This document shows, one piece after another, positions 45,646-54,130 of a DNA stretch of 64,000 bases. Location: positions 1-64,000 of the forward strand of contig JAFKFH010000014.1 of assembly GCA_017307375.1 (NCBI GenBank), in the 5' to 3' direction. The stretch is from Alphaproteobacteria bacterium. Its GTDB lineage: Bacteria; Pseudomonadota; Alphaproteobacteria; Ferrovibrionales; Ferrovibrionaceae. The notes beneath the pieces are model-generated. The model searched no databases and had not been told where the DNA came from. It saw only the letters and a program-made list of their open reading frames with translations. Position 1 is the first letter of the stretch. Every line of letters starts with the position of its first letter. A program made the translations under genes and the position numbers.

Positions 45646-46950
45646 ATGGCCCCTGCCATCGTCGGTTCACTGGGTGTCGCCGGGCTGCTCGGCATCGCCG
45701 CGTTGCGTGCCCCGATCGGCCTGGCGCTGATCCTTGCCGGCTTCGTCGGGCTCTGGGCACTGCACGGCCAGCAGACTGCGTTGTTCGTGCTGGCTAATGC
45801 GCCCACCACCGTCCTGTCGAGCTACGCGCTGTCGGTGTTGCCACTGTTCGTGCTGATGGGCACCGTTGCCGTCAAGGGCGGCCTGGCGGAAGCGCTCTAC
45901 CGCGCCGCCTACGCCTTCGTCGGCCATCGCCGCGGCGGGCTGGCGATCGCCTCGATCGTCGCCTGCGGCGGCTTCGGTTCGATCTGCGGGTCCAGCGTCG
46001 CCACGGTCAGCACGCTGGGCCGCGTCGCGATCCCGGAAATGCTGCGCTACGGCTATGCCAAGCCGCTCGCGGCGGGATCGCTGGCCGCCGGCGGCACGCT
46101 CGGCATCCTGATCCCGCCCTCGGTCGCGATGATCATCTACGCGATGGTGACGCAGACCTCGCTCGGCCGTCTCTTCGCCGCCGGCATCCTGCCCGGCATC
46201 CTCGCCACCCTGCTCTACTGCCTCGCCACCACCTGCTGGATGCGGATCAACCCGGCGCTCGGACCGGCCGGCAAGCCGGTCCCATGGCCCGAGCGGCTGA
46301 CCGCCCTGCGCGGCGTCTGGGGTATCGTCGCGCTGTTCGCGGTCGTCATGGGCGGCATGTTCTCGGGCATCTTCTCGCCGACCGAAGGAGCCTCGGTCGG
46401 CGCGTTCGGCGCCATCGTGCTGGGCTTCGCGCAGCGCGAACTCACCTGGGGCAAGCTGGTCGACGCGATCGTCGAGGCGGTGCAGACCTCGGTGATGATC
46501 CTGTTCGCCGTCGTCGGCATCTCGGTCTTCGAATACTTCATGCAGGCCGCCCGCGTGCCGCAGGCGGTGGAAGGCTTCGTCCGCGCCCTAGACCTCGGCG
46601 CCTACGGATCGCTGTCGCTGATCATCGGCATCCTGATCCTGCTGGGCTGCTTCCTCGATTCGATTGCCATCCTGTTCATCGTCACGCCGGTGATCTATCC
46701 GATCGTCGTCGGCTATGGCTTCGATCCGATCTGGTTCGGAATTATCATGGTGATGGTGGTCGAATTCGGGCTGATCACCCCGCCTTTCGGCATGAACGTC
46801 TTCGTGCTGACCAAGGTCGTGCCGGGGATCGGCACGACCGAGGCCTTCCGCGGGGTCGGGCCGTACATCCTCGCCGACTTCGTCCGCATCGGCCTGCTGA
46901 TCGCCTTCCCGTCGATCGTGCTGCTGCTGCCCAACCTGCTTTACGGCTGA
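45646..46950 (+). CDS. TRAP transporter large permease (DctM-type)
   Basis: 434 residues, ~12 membrane helices. DctM motifs: LPLFVLMGTVAVKGGL, GGTLGILIPPSVAMIIYAMV, FSPTEGASVGAFGAIVLG and LITPPFGMNVFVL. It carries the transport channel of the TRAP system and lies 14 bases after the binding-protein gene, before the small subunit, an order reversed from the other TRAP operon in this window. Confidence 0.94.
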   Translation: MAPAIVGSLGVAGLLGIAALRAPIGLALILAGFVGLWALHGQQTALFVLANAPTTVLSSYALSVLPLFVLMGTVAVKGGLAEALYRAAYAFVGHRRGGLAIASIVACGGFGSICGSSVATVSTLGRVAIPEMLRYGYAKPLAAGSLAAGGTLGILIPPSVAMIIYAMVTQTSLGRLFAAGILPGILATLLYCLATTCWMRINPALGPAGKPVPWPERLTALRGVWGIVALFAVVMGGMFSGIFSPTEGASVGAFGAIVLGFAQRELTWGKLVDAIVEAVQTSVMILFAVVGISVFEYFMQAARVPQAVEGFVRALDLGAYGSLSLIIGILILLGCFLDSIAILFIVTPVIYPIVVGYGFDPIWFGIIMVMVVEFGLITPPFGMNVFVLTKVVPGIGTTEAFRGVGPYILADFVRIGLLIAFPSIVLLLPNLLYG

Positions 46951-46960
46951 GGATACCGGC

Positions 46961-47443
46961 ATGGACACGATCAACGCCTGGACGTCCCGCCTCGACCGCT
47001 GGCTGGTGTTCGCCGCCGGTGCCGCGCTGGCCTACATGATGACGATGACCGTCGCCGACATCGTCAGCCGTTCGCTCAGCCCGTTCACCATCGCCTCGAG
47101 CGTCGAGCAGACCGAGCTTGCCATGCTGGTCGTCGGCTTCCTCGGCCTGGCCCGCTGCCTGCGCACCGACGGCAACATCACCATCGACGTGCTCAGCCAG
47201 CATTTCCCCGACCGGTTGAATCGCTGGATCGATACCTTCTGGCTGGCGGTCACCGCCGTGCTGCTCGGCTTTCTCGCCTGGGCGGTGCTGCGCAGCGGCC
47301 TCGCCCTCGACGCCGACGGACAGCGCAGCGAACTACTGGGCCTGTCGCCGCTGGCCGGCCATGCCGTCGCCGCGCTCGGTCTCGCCGCGGCGGCGGCGGC
47401 CGCGGCGCAGATGGTGGTCATGCGCCTGGCAAGCCGACGCTGA
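46961..47443 (+). CDS. TRAP transporter small permease (DctQ-type)
   Basis: 160 residues, four hydrophobic helices: LVFAAGAALAYMMTMTVADI, TELAMLVVGFLGLARCL, FWLAVTAVLLGFLAWAVL and LAGHAVAALGLAAAAAA. RCLRTDGNITIDVLSQHF matches the DctQ 'H/N-I-x-I/V-D' region. Weakly conserved as usual for DctQ; position after dctM confirms it. Its stop is five bases from the convergent adenine deaminase stop. Confidence 0.9.
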   Translation: MDTINAWTSRLDRWLVFAAGAALAYMMTMTVADIVSRSLSPFTIASSVEQTELAMLVVGFLGLARCLRTDGNITIDVLSQHFPDRLNRWIDTFWLAVTAVLLGFLAWAVLRSGLALDADGQRSELLGLSPLAGHAVAALGLAAAAAAAAQMVVMRLASRR

Positions 47444-47448
47444 CGCCG

Positions 47449-49158
47449 TCAGGCCGCGATCAGCTCGAAACGATCGACGTCGACCAGCCCCATGTCGGTG
47501 ATCTTCAGATGCGGGATCACCGGCAGGGGCAGGAAGGCCAGTTGCAGGAACGGTTCGTCGAGCGGGCAACCAAGCTCCCGTACCGAGGCGCGCAGGGTCA
47601 CCAGATTGCGCTCGACCGTCTTGAAATCCCGATCGCTCATCAGCCCCGCCACCGGCAGGGCCAGTTCGGCGATGACCCGGCCGTTGCGGACGGCGACGAA
47701 CCCGCCCTTCAACTCGATCAGGCGGTTGACGGCCAGCGCCATGTCTGCATCGGTCGCACCGACGACGCAGACATTGTGGCTGTCGTGGCCGACCGACGAG
47801 GCCAGCGCGCCCTCGCGGAACCCGAATCCCTTGACGAAGCCGCGACCGATATTCCGGTTCTTGCCGTGCCGGCCCAGCACGCAGACCTTGAGCACATCGT
47901 TGTCGAGATCGACGAGACGCTCGCCGTCGCGATAAGGCAGGCTCATCGTCAGATGCTCGGTCACCACCTGATGATTCTTCAGGCCGATCACCGGCCCGGA
48001 CGGGCCTGACGCCGGGACGCGGAAATCGGCGGACTCCACCGGATCGAGTCTGATCGAATCGAGGCCCACCAGCGGCACCCGGGCGCGGCCGGCGAAACTC
48101 GCAGCGTCGACCACCCGGCCATCCTTGATCACGCTATGGACCGCACAGGTCTCCAGATCGTCGAGCAGCACGAGGTCGGCGCGATAGCCCGGCGCCACCA
48201 GCCCGCGGTCGCGCAGGCCGAAACCACGCGCCGCCGACCAGGTCGCGGCACGATAGACATGGGCCACCGGCGCGCCCAGCCGGATCGACTTGCGGATCAG
48301 ATGGTCGAGATGGCCTTCGTCATGAATGTCGAGCGGGTTGCGGTCGTCGGTGCAGAAGGCCAGGAAGGACGACGTCTCGGCATTGATCAGCGGGGCGAGG
48401 GTCGAGACGTCCTTGGTCACGCTGCCGTCGCGGATCAGCACCTGCATGCCCTTGCGCAGCTTCTCCAGCGCCTCCGGCGCCGAGGTGCATTCGTGGCAGT
48501 TGCGGATGCCGCAGGAGAGATAGGCATTCAGCTCGCGGCCCGACAGCATCGGCGAATGGCCGTCGATATGCCAGCCGTCGAAGGCCACGAGCTTGTCGAG
48601 CACGTCCGGATCGTGATGGAAGATGCCCGGGTAGTTCATGAACTCGGCGAGCCCCACCACCTTGGGGTGGTTGCGGTGGCGCACCAGGTCGTCGGCGGTC
48701 AGCCGGCCCCCCGCCGTCTCCAGATGGGTCGCCGGCACGCAGGACGACAGCTGGACCCGCAGGTCCATCGCGGTGTTGCCGGCAGACTGCAGGAAGAATT
48801 CTAGGCCCTGCTCGCCCAGCACGTTGCAGATCTCGTGCGGGTCGCAGATCGCCGTCGTCGTGCCGCGCGGCAGCACGCAGGCATCGAATTCGAGCGGCGT
48901 GACCAGCGTCGATTCGCAATGGACGTGGGTATCGATGAAGCCGGGCACGACGACCTTGTCGCGCCCGTCGATCTCCATCACCCCGTCATAGGCTTCGTAG
49001 GTGCCGACGATGACGTCGCCGCAGACGGCCACGTCACCCGCCGCGACCTCGCCGGTGACCACGTTGAGGAACCGGGTGTTCCTGATCACCAGGTCGGCCT
49101 TGCTGCGGCCGAGCGCCTGGTCGATCCGGCGGATGAGGCGGTCGCGGGTCTGGGTCAT
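47449..49158 (-). CDS. ade: Adenine deaminase
   Basis: 569 residues from the ATG overlapping the upstream ThDP-enzyme stop by one base. Amidohydrolase motifs: PGFIDTHVHCESTLVTP (metal histidines), TTTAICDPHEICNVLG, HIDGHSPMLSGRELNAYLSCGI and FCTDDRNPLDI with the catalytic Asp. The C-terminal domain (SVGHDSHNVCVVGATDADMALAV) is specific for Ade. It deaminates adenine to hypoxanthine. Placed with a ThDP enzyme and a DsbA-family protein, its substrate may differ from adenine. Confidence 0.93.
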   Translation of the reverse strand: MTQTRDRLIRRIDQALGRSKADLVIRNTRFLNVVTGEVAAGDVAVCGDVIVGTYEAYDGVMEIDGRDKVVVPGFIDTHVHCESTLVTPLEFDACVLPRGTTTAICDPHEICNVLGEQGLEFFLQSAGNTAMDLRVQLSSCVPATHLETAGGRLTADDLVRHRNHPKVVGLAEFMNYPGIFHHDPDVLDKLVAFDGWHIDGHSPMLSGRELNAYLSCGIRNCHECTSAPEALEKLRKGMQVLIRDGSVTKDVSTLAPLINAETSSFLAFCTDDRNPLDIHDEGHLDHLIRKSIRLGAPVAHVYRAATWSAARGFGLRDRGLVAPGYRADLVLLDDLETCAVHSVIKDGRVVDAASFAGRARVPLVGLDSIRLDPVESADFRVPASGPSGPVIGLKNHQVVTEHLTMSLPYRDGERLVDLDNDVLKVCVLGRHGKNRNIGRGFVKGFGFREGALASSVGHDSHNVCVVGATDADMALAVNRLIELKGGFVAVRNGRVIAELALPVAGLMSDRDFKTVERNLVTLRASVRELGCPLDEPFLQLAFLPLPVIPHLKITDMGLVDVDRFELIAA

Positions 49159-50843
49159 CAGCCCTCCTGGGCGTGTTCCTTCTGGGCCTGGGCTCGAATC
49201 TGGCTCAGCGACTGCCTGATCGTCAATGCCTCGGGGTCGACGCGCAGTTCGATCAATGCCGTGGTCGGGGCCGACCGCGCACGCTCCAATGCCGCGGCGA
49301 AATCCTCGGTCCGGGTCACCGTCTCGCCATGCAGGCCGAACGAGCGGGCATAGGCGGCAAAATCCGGGTTCTTCAACTCGGTCCCTGAGACGCGGGCGGG
49401 GAACCGTCGCTCCTGATGCATGCGGATCGTGCCGTACATGCCGTTGTTCACCACGATGACCAGGATCTTGGCATCGTATTGCGCCGCGGTGGCCAGTTCC
49501 GAGGCATACATCATGAAGCAGCCGTCGCCGGCAAAGCAGACGACCTCGCGGTCGGGCGCGGCAAGCTTGGCGGCGATCGCCGCCGGCAGGCCGTAACCCA
49601 TCGCGCCGTTGGTGGGGGCGAGGATCGAGCGGTACCTGCGATAACGATGATAGCGATGCACCCAGGTGGCGTAGTTGCCGGCGCCGTTGGTGACGATGAC
49701 GTCGGCCGGGAAGGCGGCATCGACCTGGCGCACCACGGCCGCCATGTCGACCGCGCCGATGCCGGGGCCGGGTGCGGTCCAGGCGAGGTAGTCGGCGCGG
49801 GCCGCCTCGGTCCAGCCGCGCCAGTGGCCCTCGACCGGGGGCAACGCGCGGGCGGCCGCGGCAAACGCCGCCATGCCGGCATTGATGCCCAGCGTCGGCT
49901 GGTAGACCCGCCCGATCTCCTCGGCGCCGGGCAGGACATGCACCAGCGGCTGGGCCGGTACCGGCACGTCGATCAGCGTGTAGCCCGAGGTCGTCATCTC
50001 GCCCAGCCGGGCGCCGGCCACGATCAGCAGGTCGCAATCGCGGATGCGCGCGGCGAGCTTGGGGTTGATGCCGATGCCGACGTCGCCGACATATTGCGCA
50101 TGGTCGTTGTCGAAGCAGTCCTGCGCCCGAAACGAGGTGGCGACCGGCAGGGCATTGGCTTCGGCGAAGGCCCTGATATCGGCGACGGCCTGCGGGGTCC
50201 AGGTGCCGCCGCCCAGGATCACCATCGGCTGCCGGGCCTGGGCCAGCAACGCGCGGAATTCCGCCATCGCCGCGGCGCCGGGATGGGCCTGCACCGGCTG
50301 GTAGGGCCTGGGGTCGACGGCGACGACCTCGTCTCGCAGCATGTCCTCGGGCAGCGCCAGAACCACCGGCCCCGGCCGGCCCGAGGTCGCGACCTGGAAG
50401 GCGCGCGCGACATATTCCGAAATGCGCGCGGCATCGTCGATCTCGGCCACCCATTTGGCCATCTGGCCGAACATCCGGCGGTAATCGACTTCCTGGAACG
50501 CTTCGCGTTCGATCATGTCGCGGCCGACCTGGCCGATGAACAGGATCATCGGGGTCGAATCCTGAAAGGCGGTGTGCAGGCCGTTCGCCGCGTGGGTGGC
50601 GCCGGGACCGCGGGTCACCATGCAGATGCCGGGCCTGCCGGTCAGCTTGCCGTAAGCGTCGGCCATGTTCGAGGCGCCACCCTCGTGCCGGCAGATCACG
50701 AAGCGGATCGCGGCGTCATGCAGCGCGTCGAGGACCTCGAGATAGCTTTCGCCGGGCACGCCGAAGGCGTGGTCGACACCATGGATGACAAGCTGGTCGA
50801 CGAGGATCTGGCCGCCCGAGCGCCGGGCCTGGGATGTGGTCAT
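49158..50843 (-). CDS. Thiamine-diphosphate-dependent enzyme (acetolactate-synthase-like)
   Basis: 561 residues. ThDP N-domain with the activating glutamate in VICRHEGGASNMADAYGK, then TRGPGATHAANGLHTAF; central FAD/NAD-like domain (MVILGGGTWTPQAV); C-domain with the diphosphate motif VCFAGDGCFMMYASELATAAQ and NNGMYGTIRMH. Fold shared by acetolactate synthase, glyoxylate carboligase and benzoylformate or oxalyl-CoA decarboxylase. No regulatory subunit (ilvN) is nearby, so valine synthesis is unlikely; a catabolic carboligase or decarboxylase is preferred. Cofactor-binding detail does not settle the substrate. Confidence 0.88.
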   Translation of the reverse strand: MTTSQARRSGGQILVDQLVIHGVDHAFGVPGESYLEVLDALHDAAIRFVICRHEGGASNMADAYGKLTGRPGICMVTRGPGATHAANGLHTAFQDSTPMILFIGQVGRDMIEREAFQEVDYRRMFGQMAKWVAEIDDAARISEYVARAFQVATSGRPGPVVLALPEDMLRDEVVAVDPRPYQPVQAHPGAAAMAEFRALLAQARQPMVILGGGTWTPQAVADIRAFAEANALPVATSFRAQDCFDNDHAQYVGDVGIGINPKLAARIRDCDLLIVAGARLGEMTTSGYTLIDVPVPAQPLVHVLPGAEEIGRVYQPTLGINAGMAAFAAAARALPPVEGHWRGWTEAARADYLAWTAPGPGIGAVDMAAVVRQVDAAFPADVIVTNGAGNYATWVHRYHRYRRYRSILAPTNGAMGYGLPAAIAAKLAAPDREVVCFAGDGCFMMYASELATAAQYDAKILVIVVNNGMYGTIRMHQERRFPARVSGTELKNPDFAAYARSFGLHGETVTRTEDFAAALERARSAPTTALIELRVDPEALTIRQSLSQIRAQAQKEHAQEG

Positions 50844-50857
50844 TGCAGACTCTTTCC

Positions 50858-51469
50858 TTAAAGCTGTGAGGCCGCCTTCAGGCGTGCCTCGATCAGGACG
50901 AGGCGGTCGTTGCCGAAGAACATGTCGCCGTCGAGGAACATCGTCGGCGAGCCGAAGCCGCCGCGTGCGATCACCTCGTCGGTATTGGCGCGCAGCGCCT
51001 GGCGGATCGGCTGGGTATCGATCGCGGCGAGGAAGTCGGCCGGGTCCTGGCCCAGCCGCAAGGCGATGTCGGCCAGCACCGAGCCCTGCGAGATGTCGAG
51101 CCGGTCGCGCCAATAGGCCTCGAACACCGCGCGGGCGTAGCGCACCTGCAGCCCCAGTTCGGCCATCACGATCGCCCCGCGCATCGCCTTGACCGAATTG
51201 ACCGGGAAGACCGGCTGCGGGAAATGGATGGTGAGCCCGGCGAAGGCAGCCCAGTCCTGCAGGTCCTTGCGCATGTAGGCGGCCTTGGCCGGCACCGGGT
51301 TTTCGCGGCTTTCGTACACGCTGGGGTTGATCGTGTTGAAGATGCCACCGACCAGGATCGGGCGCCAGGTGATCGCCAGCCCGTAGCGCTCGGCGATCGG
51401 CTGGACCTGCTCGAACGCAAGATAGGTCCAGGGACTGGAACAATCGTAGAAAAACTCGAGGCGCGACAT
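50858..51469 (-). CDS. DsbA-family / 2-hydroxychromene-2-carboxylate isomerase-like protein
   Basis: 203 residues from the ATG opening MSRLEFFYDCSSPWTYLAFE. The N-terminal strand and FYDCSSPW motif (Ser in place of the CxxC) are those of NahD-type kappa-class GST-like isomerases. RPILVGGIFNTINPSVY and FGSPTMFLDGDMFFGNDRLVLIE also fit. They isomerise hydroxychromene carboxylates in naphthalene-type pathways, using glutathione. Leftward, 14 bases before the ThDP gene. Substrate unknown. Confidence 0.88.
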   Translation of the reverse strand: MSRLEFFYDCSSPWTYLAFEQVQPIAERYGLAITWRPILVGGIFNTINPSVYESRENPVPAKAAYMRKDLQDWAAFAGLTIHFPQPVFPVNSVKAMRGAIVMAELGLQVRYARAVFEAYWRDRLDISQGSVLADIALRLGQDPADFLAAIDTQPIRQALRANTDEVIARGGFGSPTMFLDGDMFFGNDRLVLIEARLKAASQL

Positions 51470-51539
51470 TGACTTGATCCCTCCCGCGGCGGACGGGATT
51501 ATAACGGCTGGATCCTGCAGCGTAACCCCAAGCTGGCAC

Positions 51540-52646
51540 ATGCACACATGCCTGCGGCGCCTTGCCGCCCTACTCCTGCCGGCGGCGCTCGCCCTCCTGT
51601 GCAGCCTCGTCACGCCACCGGCCGCCGCGCAGCAGGCGACGCCGCCTGCCATCAGGGTCGGGGTGGTCGCGATGCCGCCGTTCGCCTATCCCGACCGGCA
51701 AGGCAAGCTGACCGGGCTGGGGATCGAGCTGTGGACACGCGTCGCCGCGCGGCTTCGACTCGACTACACCCTGATCCCGATCAGCCATGCCGACATCTTC
51801 AACGCGCTGGCGGACGGGCGGATCGACGTCGGGCTGGGCGGTCTGGTCGCCGACCCGAAGAACATGAAGCTCGCCCATTTCACCCAGCCCTACATGCGCG
51901 CCGGTCTCGCCATCGCCACCCGGCCCGACGACCGTCCGGGCATCCTGATCGCGCTGGCGCGGATGGATACATCCGGCGTGTTCGCCTTTCTCGGGCTGAT
52001 GATCCTGTGCATGGCGGGCATCGCCGTGCTGATCTGGTGGCTGGAGCGCCACCACAACCCCGATCATTTCGGCGGCCGGTCGGTCGAGGGGATCGGCCGC
52101 AGCTTCTGGTGGTCGGCGGTCACGATGACCCAGGTCGGTTATGGCGACCTGGTGCCGCGTTCGCTCGGCGGCCGGGCGATCGCCCTGATCTGGATGCTGG
52201 TTTCGCTGGTCCTGGTCTCGGTCTTCACCGGTATCGTCACCGCCGCGCTGACGGTCGGGCAGACCGAGGGCCGCGTGCGCAATACCGCCGACCTGCGCGG
52301 CGTCGCCATCGGCACGTCGCGCGACAGCGAGGGCGCGGCCTGGCTGGCGGCCCAGGGCATCGGCTTCACCGCTTACGAGGACGACCGCGCGGCGCTCGCG
52401 GCGATGGTCACCGGCGAGGTCCAGGCCGTGGTCGGGCTGGGACCCGAACTGCGCTTCTTTGCCCGGCGCGAGTTCGACCAGGCGGTGACGGTCCTGCCCC
52501 ATTCGCTGTCGCAGCGCTGGGTCAGCTTCGCCTACCGGCCGGGTCTGGATGTCGGCCACCAGATCGACCGCACCATGGTCGAAACGATCGAAAGCGAGGA
52601 ATGGGAACGCATCCGCACCGGTTTCCTCGGCGACAACGGCGATTGA
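51540..52646 (+). CDS. Prokaryotic ionotropic glutamate-receptor-like channel (GluR0-type), copy 1
   Basis: 368 residues. Signal peptide MHTCLRRLAALLLPAALALL, then ligand-domain half S1 (IRVGVVAMPPFAYPD, LTGLGIELW), membrane helix 1 (~152-175), pore loop with selectivity filter QVGYGD (198-203), membrane helix 2 (~215-240) and half S2 (DLRGVAIGTSRDSEG, VQAVVGLGPELRFF). This SBP-channel-SBP order is that of bacterial GluR0, a ligand-gated K+ channel. In S1, the segment DPKNMKLAHFTQPY carries Asn where amino-acid-binding members have the ligand-clamping Arg. It sits two bases before a paralogue. The start ATG is the second of two close candidates. Confidence 0.85.
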   Translation: MHTCLRRLAALLLPAALALLCSLVTPPAAAQQATPPAIRVGVVAMPPFAYPDRQGKLTGLGIELWTRVAARLRLDYTLIPISHADIFNALADGRIDVGLGGLVADPKNMKLAHFTQPYMRAGLAIATRPDDRPGILIALARMDTSGVFAFLGLMILCMAGIAVLIWWLERHHNPDHFGGRSVEGIGRSFWWSAVTMTQVGYGDLVPRSLGGRAIALIWMLVSLVLVSVFTGIVTAALTVGQTEGRVRNTADLRGVAIGTSRDSEGAAWLAAQGIGFTAYEDDRAALAAMVTGEVQAVVGLGPELRFFARREFDQAVTVLPHSLSQRWVSFAYRPGLDVGHQIDRTMVETIESEEWERIRTGFLGDNGD

Positions 52647-52648
52647 CC

Positions 52649-53737
52649 ATGTCGCTGCCGCGCCTTCTCGCCGCACTCTCGGTCATCTGCCTGCTGGCCA
52701 TTCCCGCGCAGGCGCAAGCGCCGGCAGCCCCGCTTGCCGCCCCGATCAAGGTCGGCGTGCTGCGGGCGCCGCCCTTCGCCTTCCAGGATCACGACGGGCA
52801 GTGGACCGGCCTGTGCATCGAGTTGTGGCGCCATATCGCCACGGCGCTGAAGCTGCATTACGAGCTGGTCCCGACCCAACTTGCGACCATCTACGACGAC
52901 CTTGCCGCCGGCCGCTTCGACGTGGCGCTGGGCGGGCTGACGCCGGACAGCCAGAACGTGCTGAAGGCCGATTTCACCCTGCCCTACATGCCCTCGGGAC
53001 TGGCGATCGCGGTGCAGCCGGGCGACCGTCCCGGCTTCCTGCAGGCGCTGGTGCAGATGGACACCTCCGGCGTGTTCTCGTTCCTCGGCATCATCATCCT
53101 GTGCCTGGTGATCGTCGCCGTGCTCGTCTGGTGGCTGGAACGGCGGCGCAACCCCGAGCATTTCGGCGGCTCGCTGTGGAGCGGGCTGAGCCAGAGCTTC
53201 TGGTGGTCGGCCGTGACGATGACGACCGTCGGCTATGGCGACTTGGTGCCGCGGTCGACCTGGGGCAGGATCCTGGCCTTCGGCTGGATGATCCTGTCGC
53301 TGATCCTGGTCTCGGTCTTCACCGGCCTCGTCACCTCGGCGATGACGGTCAGCCAGATCAGCGCCGGCATCTCCGGCCCCGCCGACCTTCGCCACGTCGC
53401 CGTCGGGGCGATCAAGGGCGGGGAAGGCGCGGCCTACCTGACCGGTCACAACATCGCCTTCACGCCGTACCCCAGCAGCGAGGCGTCGCTGAAGGCGCTG
53501 GCCACGGGCCGGATCGATGCCGTCGTCGGCCTCGCCCCGGAGCTGAGGTTCCTGACCGAGCGCGATTTCCGCGGGCAGATCGCGATCCTGCCCCATCTGA
53601 TCCAGCGCCGCTGGGTCAGCTTCGCCACCCGGCCGGGCCTGCCGCAGGCGCGCGCGATCGAGCAACAGCTGGTACGGATCACCGAAACCGAGATGTGGAA
53701 CCGGGTGCTGGCGGGATTTATCGGACGCGAGCACTGA
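52649..53737 (+). CDS. Prokaryotic ionotropic glutamate-receptor-like channel (GluR0-type), copy 2
   Basis: 362 residues. Signal peptide MSLPRLLAALSVICLLAIP with cleavage near AQA. S1 begins IKVGVLRAPPFAFQDHD; helix 1 is about 146-168 (VFSFLGIIILCLVIVAVLV); the filter TVGYGD is at 193-198, the exact K+-channel signature; helix 2 follows (ILAFGWMILSLILVSVFTG); S2 includes DLRHVAVGAIKGGEG. The S1 clamp position again has Asn (TPDSQNVLKADF). Two bases after copy 1, so co-translated. Membrane regions are the most alike, S2 the most divergent. A heteromeric channel of both copies is plausible. Confidence 0.87.
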   Translation: MSLPRLLAALSVICLLAIPAQAQAPAAPLAAPIKVGVLRAPPFAFQDHDGQWTGLCIELWRHIATALKLHYELVPTQLATIYDDLAAGRFDVALGGLTPDSQNVLKADFTLPYMPSGLAIAVQPGDRPGFLQALVQMDTSGVFSFLGIIILCLVIVAVLVWWLERRRNPEHFGGSLWSGLSQSFWWSAVTMTTVGYGDLVPRSTWGRILAFGWMILSLILVSVFTGLVTSAMTVSQISAGISGPADLRHVAVGAIKGGEGAAYLTGHNIAFTPYPSSEASLKALATGRIDAVVGLAPELRFLTERDFRGQIAILPHLIQRRWVSFATRPGLPQARAIEQQLVRITETEMWNRVLAGFIGREH

Positions 53738-53743
53738 GACGGG

Positions 53744-53778
53744 CAAAAGAAAACCCGCCGGGGACGGGCCCGGCGGGT
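53744..53778 (-). terminator. Intrinsic terminator of the BON-protein gene
   Basis: On the minus strand ACCCGCCGGG (53778-53769), six-base loop, CCCGGCGGGT (53762-53753) followed by TTTCTTTT. Perfect 10-bp stem with a U-rich tail, 26 bases after the BON gene stop. It may also shield the channel genes arriving on the plus strand. Confidence 0.88.
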
Positions 53779-53803
53779 CGGTATCGTGGCTGGCGGACGG
53801 GGA

Positions 53804-54130
53804 TCAGCCGCGGACCACGATGTTGTTCTTGACCGAGCGCACGCCATCGACCTGGGCGGCGACCCGGGCGGCCAGCGTCTTGTCGGCCGCCTGATCGACG
53901 AAGCCCGACAGCTGGACCACGCCCTGCATCGTCTCGACGTTGATCTGCATGGCGCTCAGGCTGGGCTCGCCGACGATCTTGCTCTTGACCTTCGCGGTGA
54001 TCGCGCTGTCATCGATGTATTCGCCGGCGGTCTGGCGGCCTTCGACGGCCGAGCAGGCGGCCAGCCCGCCCGACAGCACGGCGGTCAAGGCGAGGGCCGA
54101 CAGGATCTTGCGCGGGGAAATGTCAGTCAT
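53804..54130 (-). CDS. BON-domain lipoprotein (OsmY-like)
   Basis: 108 residues from the ATG preceded by AAGGAT eight bases upstream; the ATG nine bases earlier has no room for a site. Lipobox LAAC with Cys near residue 26. A single BON domain follows: DDSAITAKVKSKIVGEPSLSAMQINVETMQGVVQLSGFV and the closing VRSVKNNIVV. BON proteins bind phospholipid and are often stress induced. Probably periplasmic, anchored in a membrane. Followed by a strong terminator. Confidence 0.88.
   Translation of the reverse strand: MTDISPRKILSALALTAVLSGGLAACSAVEGRQTAGEYIDDSAITAKVKSKIVGEPSLSAMQINVETMQGVVQLSGFVDQAADKTLAARVAAQVDGVRSVKNNIVVRG

Follow-up and report, generated by a model that had tools for sequence, protein, structure and literature searches.

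A tandem pair of GluR0-type potassium channel genes in an alphaproteobacterium lacks the conserved ligand-clamping arginine and aspartate

Introduction

The usual description of prokaryotic glutamate receptors is that they sense amino acids. In GluR0 of Synechocystis (slr1257) and the other Group 1 receptors, according to the available text of Ger et al. (2010; PMC2950845), a ligand domain resembling SBP_bac_3 is split around a channel with a K+ filter, in the order S1-M1-P-M2-S2. An arginine of S1 contacts the alpha-carboxylate of the ligand and an aspartate of S2 its alpha-amino group, and the same portion of that paper describes both residues as 'totally conserved' in the 22 sequences of Groups 1 and 2. 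The topology of GluR0 and its complementation of Escherichia coli have also been reported (PMC13099474, available part).

Here we describe two adjacent genes, A and B, found in a 64,000-nucleotide stretch of alphaproteobacterial DNA, called the window below, from a genome of 7.54 Mb in 41 contigs. They share with GluR0 and Group 1, as presented in the accessible text of PMC2950845, the S1-M1-P-M2-S2 order, the K+ filter and the SBP_bac_3-like ligand domain, but differ from them in having Asn and Leu in place of the conserved Arg and Asp, in being tandem, and in carrying a Gln in the filter of A. No title or abstract that we found concerns prokaryotic receptors that are clampless or heteromeric; the search did not extend to subscription papers, so that absence from the literature is unproven.

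Results

The locus comprises two frames, both uninterrupted on translation, for which the earliest good ATG was taken as the assumed start:

51540 to 52646, plus strand: gene A (P0001), 368 amino acids, GluR0-type S1-M1-P-M2-S2 subunit with filter QVGYGD and a clampless pocket
52647 to 52648, plus strand: gap of 2 bases separating the stop codon of A from the start codon (ATG) of B
52649 to 53737, plus strand: gene B (P0002), 362 amino acids, GluR0-type subunit with filter TVGYGD and a clampless pocket

The two proteins are 55% identical over 326 amino acids without a gap. Each matches SBP_bac_3, Lig_chan and Ion_trans_2 above the Pfam cut-offs, and in each the S1 and S2 halves of the SBP_bac_3 domain flank two membrane helices and a pore loop. 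The Pfam matches and the AF2 models thus bear out the GluR0-like layout that the initial annotation had read in both genes, and its two-base spacing and its two filter motifs were likewise found as it gave them. The N-termini of A and B are helical in both models and hydrophobic by eye only. We infer that translation of the two genes may be coupled through the short gap.

AF2 single-chain models, built with alignments of 68 family members, had a mean pLDDT of 91.3 for B and 91.0 for A. The three best matches of the B ligand domain are tied. One is GlnBP 8eyz (Z 29.2) and the other two are GluR0 structures, that of Nostoc (2pyy) with Z 29.0 at an rmsd of 1.6 over 211 and that of Synechocystis (1ii5) with Z 28.4 at an rmsd of 1.9 over 218. 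This domain has the fold of the family 3 solute-binding proteins (GlnH type), with Z up to that of 8eyz, but those proteins are soluble and poreless, and GlnH retains the Arg in the alignment. With the whole B model, AMPA receptor chains came top in Foldseek (E 4.2e-21, TMq 0.52). The A model gave weaker matches (2pyy Z 25.0, rmsd 3.0 over 211) and is also close to binding proteins in an empty or open state (for 4la9, Z is 24.8 and the rmsd 2.0).

A pattern-based scan of genome_contigs (84,980 species per its description) returned 311 relatives, of which the best 80 were analysed and 231 lower-scoring ones lay outside. None of these best 80 of 311 is more than 39% identical to the pair or counts as an orthologue, in a scan from which the host's own or near-identical genome records were possibly excluded. 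Profile sampling of whole genomes gave a match at E 1e-30 in 13 of 385 genomes of the class and 28 of 398 of the phylum, and at E 1e-80 in 21 of 294 genomes from the phylum to which a Planctomycetes genome belongs and in 17 of 288 from that of Cerasicoccus arenae, the centre's own genome being counted each time. In the host's order, one genome of 18 had a pair-like match at E 1e-20, and it was the host's own. Given this distribution and the 39% ceiling, the idea of a conserved operon was dropped.

Residue counts below refer to two sets. The 88 VGYGD relatives are the 80 scan rows, minus one copy, plus 9 from the whole-genome sampling; L032 (regarded as duplicating L101), L050 (whose match equals that of L049) and L143 (identical to L116 in the tree) were left out, and L091 was retained although its extended frame contains a stop. 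The wider set holds 113 distinct relatives with a K+ filter defined as V/I-GYGD; it omits the same three and nine copies of earlier rows, and excludes L167 (a two-piece match). The L212 match has no S1.

The filters lie at:

52131 to 52148, plus strand: gene A filter Q198-V-G-Y-G-D, with Gln instead of Thr
53225 to 53242, plus strand: gene B filter T193-V-G-Y-G-D, canonical

The K+ signature is complete in B, while A keeps VGYGD with Gln replacing a Thr that is present in 86 of the 88 relatives (one has Ala, one Gly). The clamp positions, for which the Arg column was anchored by profile alignment to Nostoc GluR0 2pyy and on the available text of PMC2950845, are:

51852 to 51863, plus strand: gene A D105-P-K-N108, D-x-x-N where most relatives have T-x-x-R
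52946 to 52957, plus strand: gene B D100-S-Q-N103, D-x-x-N where most relatives have T-x-x-R
52434 to 52448, plus strand: gene A G299-L300-G-P-E303, Leu at the S2 Asp (ligand amine) position
53528 to 53542, plus strand: gene B G294-L295-A-P-E298, Leu at the S2 Asp (ligand amine) position

Among the best 80 of the 311 scan relatives the S1 column is Arg in 80/80 and the S2 column Asp in 80/80, against Asn and Leu in A and B. The replacement of Arg by Asn, first noticed from the sequence alone, therefore holds in both copies after alignment to GluR0 and family 3 proteins. Three residues before the Arg, the same 80 relatives have T (66), N (8), S (4), A (1) or K (1), and A and B have Asp. Loss of the S2 Asp, this change from Thr to Asp and a Glu at helix F are additions to the original observation on the Arg. 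The last of these, and a hinge segment also shared by the two proteins, map as follows:

52329 to 52331, plus strand: gene A E264, N-terminus of helix F (Thr or Ser in 69/88 relatives, Glu in 0/88)
53423 to 53425, plus strand: gene B E259, N-terminus of helix F (Thr or Ser in 69/88 relatives, Glu in 0/88)
52515 to 52523, plus strand: gene A R326-W-V, hinge segment with a rare Arg, and with Val for a conserved Tyr
53609 to 53617, plus strand: gene B R321-W-V, hinge segment with a rare Arg, and with Val for a conserved Tyr

Eight residues (D100, N103, E259, G294, L295, E298, W322 and V323 in B numbering, used from here on) are the same in A and B and occur at these columns in 0/88 VGYGD relatives; in the later, wider sample, a Glu at column 259 was found outside the window pair in L230. 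At the R321 column, Arg is present in 2 of the 80 scan relatives (best 80 of 311), and Lys or Arg in 2% of the 88. On our own placement, R321 is taken as the equivalent of GluA2 K730, and Y732 as a contact. The ligand contacts of GluA2 include R485, E705, P478, T480 and S654/T655 (PMC5766834, accessible part), and their transfer to A and B is our mapping, for which the columns of the Arg and the Asp served as anchors together with the profile alignment to 2pyy. Of 7 assumed contact columns, 4 hold residues that A and B share and the 88 relatives lack, and so do 4 of the 211 remaining columns in the ligand domain (Fisher p 2.6e-5, with contacts picked once the alignment was known). The window pair jointly breaks seven family-conserved ligand-domain columns, 103, 295 and 323 among them, compared with 0 to 4 for 14 other pairs of 43-74% identity hand-picked from the tree. 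A and B are also more alike in the ligand loops (22/32 identical) than in the rest of the domain (84/181; p 0.016, with loops delimited afterwards).

Acids common to A and B and rare in the 88 relatives are D100, E259 and E298 (0%) and position 338 (14%); acids have been lost from both near the site at 102, 104 and 295, and basic residues at 38, 103 and 334. Basic residues shared by A and B and rare in relatives are at 68, 127, 248, 256, 321, 328 and 352. The ligand-domain net charge is -3 for A and +1 for B, versus a mean of -8.0 (sd 5.5) for the 88 relatives.

Loss of the S1 Arg also occurs elsewhere. Among the K+-filter relatives of the wider set, 106 of the 112 with data have the Arg; the six without it are L225-L229 (four Leu, one Tyr) and L230 (Asp), so that Arg loss among K+-filter members is rare, and the view that it is unique to the pair was ruled out. 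The Asp column in the 113 reads D 107, E 4, Y 1 and R 1, and only L226 is missing both the Arg and the acid. Like the window pair, L225-L230, from the Cerasicoccus arenae phylum, combine a K+ filter (TTIGYGD; TTVGYGD in L230) with a missing S1 Arg, and L230 shares the helix F Glu; unlike it, they replace the Arg by Leu, Tyr or Asp, keep an acid at the Asp column in five of six cases, and have no second copy within their short flanks. Their identity to A or B is 27-34% for the four measured (L225, L226, L227 and L230). L225-L229 come from five genomes of 2.2-2.5 Mb, the L225 match containing one TAG, and L230 retains the S2 Asp. An AU test, weakened by long branches, did not reject a single origin for the pair and L225-L229 (p 0.77). 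Among 35 relatives without a K+ filter, the Arg is present in 27 and absent in 8, four of which are the tandem genes L034, L041, L043 and L044 described below. A relative on a large Rhizobium tumorigenes plasmid (L169, 2866-3987), 34.5% identical, keeps both R and D, has no K+ filter, and lies near genes of the BatD and formylglycine-generating-enzyme families.

A and B form a sister clade with an SH-aLRT of 100 in both trees, and in the quick tree the pair is nested, at SH-aLRT 95 or more, among 97 rows of which 90 carry VGYGD. Each is the closest relative of the other among the compared rows, which rules out that two unrelated channels have been brought together. A pairwise codon model with F3x4 frequencies (our own script) gave an omega of 0.131 and rejected an omega of 1 (2dlnL 86.9), the estimate from S1 alone being saturated (t 122) and unusable. 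NG86 gave dN 0.39 and dS 0.53 overall, and near-neutral values for S2 (0.535 versus 0.538), the segment in which A and B are least alike (45% identity). The two methods thus disagree, the codon model indicating purifying selection on A and B and the NG86 count not. Third-position GC is 88% in the frame of gene A, and because of these GC-rich third positions the codon model was given more weight. Decay of the pair into pseudogenes is disfavoured by the open frames and by the codon model, with NG86 as a caveat.

Only one of the 80 scan loci (best 80 of 311, some with short flanks), L056, has an adjacent second copy; in L049 a weaker second match lies 3.8 kb away on the opposite strand. The initial annotation had GluR0-type genes as usually single, which agrees with this count, but tandems do exist elsewhere, and profile sampling brought those of the Planctomycetota phylum to three:

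L056, 5938-8156, Planctomycetota phylum: tandem pair of a K+-filter and a non-K+-filter GluR0-like gene
L206, 1492-3763, with L214, Planctomycetota phylum: tandem pair with a one-base gap
L200, 303-2556, with L215, Planctomycetota phylum: tandem pair overlapping by called starts

Like A and B, these are two adjacent GluR0-type genes on the same strand, spaced by -11 to +1 bases by called starts; unlike A and B, they have Arg and Asp in each of the two proteins and a K+ filter in just one. The window pair shows a milder filter inequality, with Gln in A and a canonical B. In a genome of 1.9 Mb from the class of the window, four iGluR-like genes stand in tandem on one strand (L034, L041, L043 and L044; G150:C64:3951-9772); all four are without the S1 Arg and the K+ filter, and they form one group with L033.

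The pair is an isolated unit. Immediately upstream of A begins a minus-strand cluster for a DsbA-fold protein, a TPP enzyme and adenine deaminase; by eye, the first of these is of the 2-hydroxychromene-2-carboxylate isomerase type. Further away, the gene for TRAP DctM and a small-subunit-like gene, on the plus strand, face this cluster (45646-51472 for the whole arrangement). The downstream neighbour is a BON-domain gene on the minus strand, and between gene B and this gene lies:

53752 to 53779, minus strand: terminator-like hairpin, two overlapping matches (0.7 expected by chance)

Since the T-run of the hairpin is on the minus strand, it would end the convergent BON-domain gene rather than gene B. 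No sigma-70 consensus promoter was found in 51300-53900. Eight other window proteins were looked for within 1.5 kb flanks of the isomerase homologue at 14 loci (16 matched other genomes of the order) and none was present, so that the neighbourhood is no reliable clue to the ligand; deducing the ligand from neighbour genes was dropped for this lack of conserved context, and adenine as the ligand is a guess.

Discussion

The reading that we favour, and hold to be somewhat probable, is that A and B make a K+ channel that is built like GluR0, possibly as a heteromer, and is gated by a ligand bound otherwise than an ordinary alpha-amino acid would be. The two genes would act as a unit in which the periplasmic S1 and S2 close on the ligand like a clamshell and pull open an inverted K+ pore, gating and orientation being modelled on GluR0. 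The pocket would most parsimoniously have been rebuilt before the duplication, on the branch leading to the pair, where the carboxylate-holding Arg would have become Asn and the amine-holding Asp Leu, with Asp, Glu and Glu gained at adjacent contact loops. Because Arg and Asp are both replaced, the ligand is probably no alpha-amino acid in the usual pose, and the label 'glutamate receptor' is unsupported, as the two residues that define it are missing. GluR0-like working with another ligand is the best-supported claim that we make.

As to what that ligand may be, the former carboxylate-contact sites, as we align them, are now neutral to acidic, and a cationic, polyhydroxy or amine-rich compound might fit them better, as might one that the Arg shared by the pair would hold from the side of the hinge. 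A cationic ligand is not favoured by the ligand domains as a whole, which are less acidic than those of the relatives, and the presence of R321 in both copies means that an acidic group of the ligand could still be accommodated at the hinge. The initial annotation, which proposed a non-amino-acid ligand, named a conserved Arg elsewhere at the ligand site as something that would refute it. The pocket is indeed unlike that of amino-acid-binding members, but R321 is in part such an Arg, and a non-amino-acid ligand is therefore likely rather than proven; judging from the residues of the site, the pair probably opens to some chemical other than an amino acid.

Whether A and B work together is a separate question. 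Tight spacing and unequal filters are the pattern expected of mixed channels, and a heteromer of A and B is plausible; co-assembly, a weaker part of our proposal, might yield a filter in which Gln and Thr alternate or mix at one of its ends. The three Planctomycetota-phylum pairs are candidate heteromeric receptors, and tandem pairs of K+ and non-K+ type suggest that mixed assembly is a recurring theme. The alternative that A and B make separate homotetramers with different ligands or conductances, and are neighbours through tandem duplication, has a serious, though less than even, chance of being right; it concerns the heteromer part only, and its chances are not to be added to those of the other readings. 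What ties A to B is adjacency and kinship only, their S2 halves are the least alike, and model A also lies near empty or open binding proteins whereas model B lies near ligand-bound ones, a soft indication. Against separate channels stand the gap of two bases, the pocket-specific residues that the two proteins have in common, and the existence of unequal-filter tandem pairs in another phylum. The fullest form of a heteromeric reading would be a 2:2 K+ channel of A and B for a positively charged or other non-amino-acid ligand, with acids at the carboxylate site and Gln (A) and Thr (B) at the filter end, belonging to a wider, unnoticed group of iGluR pairs in prokaryotes whose two pore loops differ; we think this reading unlikely.

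Two further readings bear on the ligand itself, and we give each of them only a small chance. The pair might still sense an amino acid in a flipped or shifted pose, R321 holding the carboxylate and D100 or E259 the amine. These residues, like E298, are present in both copies and rare or absent in the 88 relatives, and glutamate enters GluA2 inverted in simulations (PMC5766834, available text); the inverted pose described in that text still needs R485 and E705, however, and the equivalents of these are missing in A and B. Alternatively, the ligand domain would bind nothing, S1 and S2 serving assembly only in a channel that is constitutive or responds to osmotic conditions or K+. In keeping with this, the classical clamp residues are absent from both copies, S2 is near neutral by NG86, and Synechocystis GluR0 has been described as having its role in the volume of cells exposed to a KCl shock (PMC13099474, accessible portion). 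A degenerate site would be expected to drift, yet A and B carry the same new residues and the loops are more alike than the rest, and a GluR0 construct without N- and C-terminal domains did not restore growth, according to the same portion of PMC13099474.

Animal chemosensory IRs are iGluR-derived, respond to ligands other than glutamate, and many are without the ligand Arg. They differ from A and B in being eukaryotic and in having a non-K+ pore and a third membrane helix, and loss of the Arg in IRs and in A and B is an independent change. The clamp is wholly replaced, and identically in A and B, which suggests that this receptor has been retuned to other signals in bacteria as it has in the IRs of insects. 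A and B offer small soluble S1S2 domains with which a ligand may be found, and since tandem pairs whose filters differ recur, the existence of bacterial heteromeric iGluRs is directly testable.
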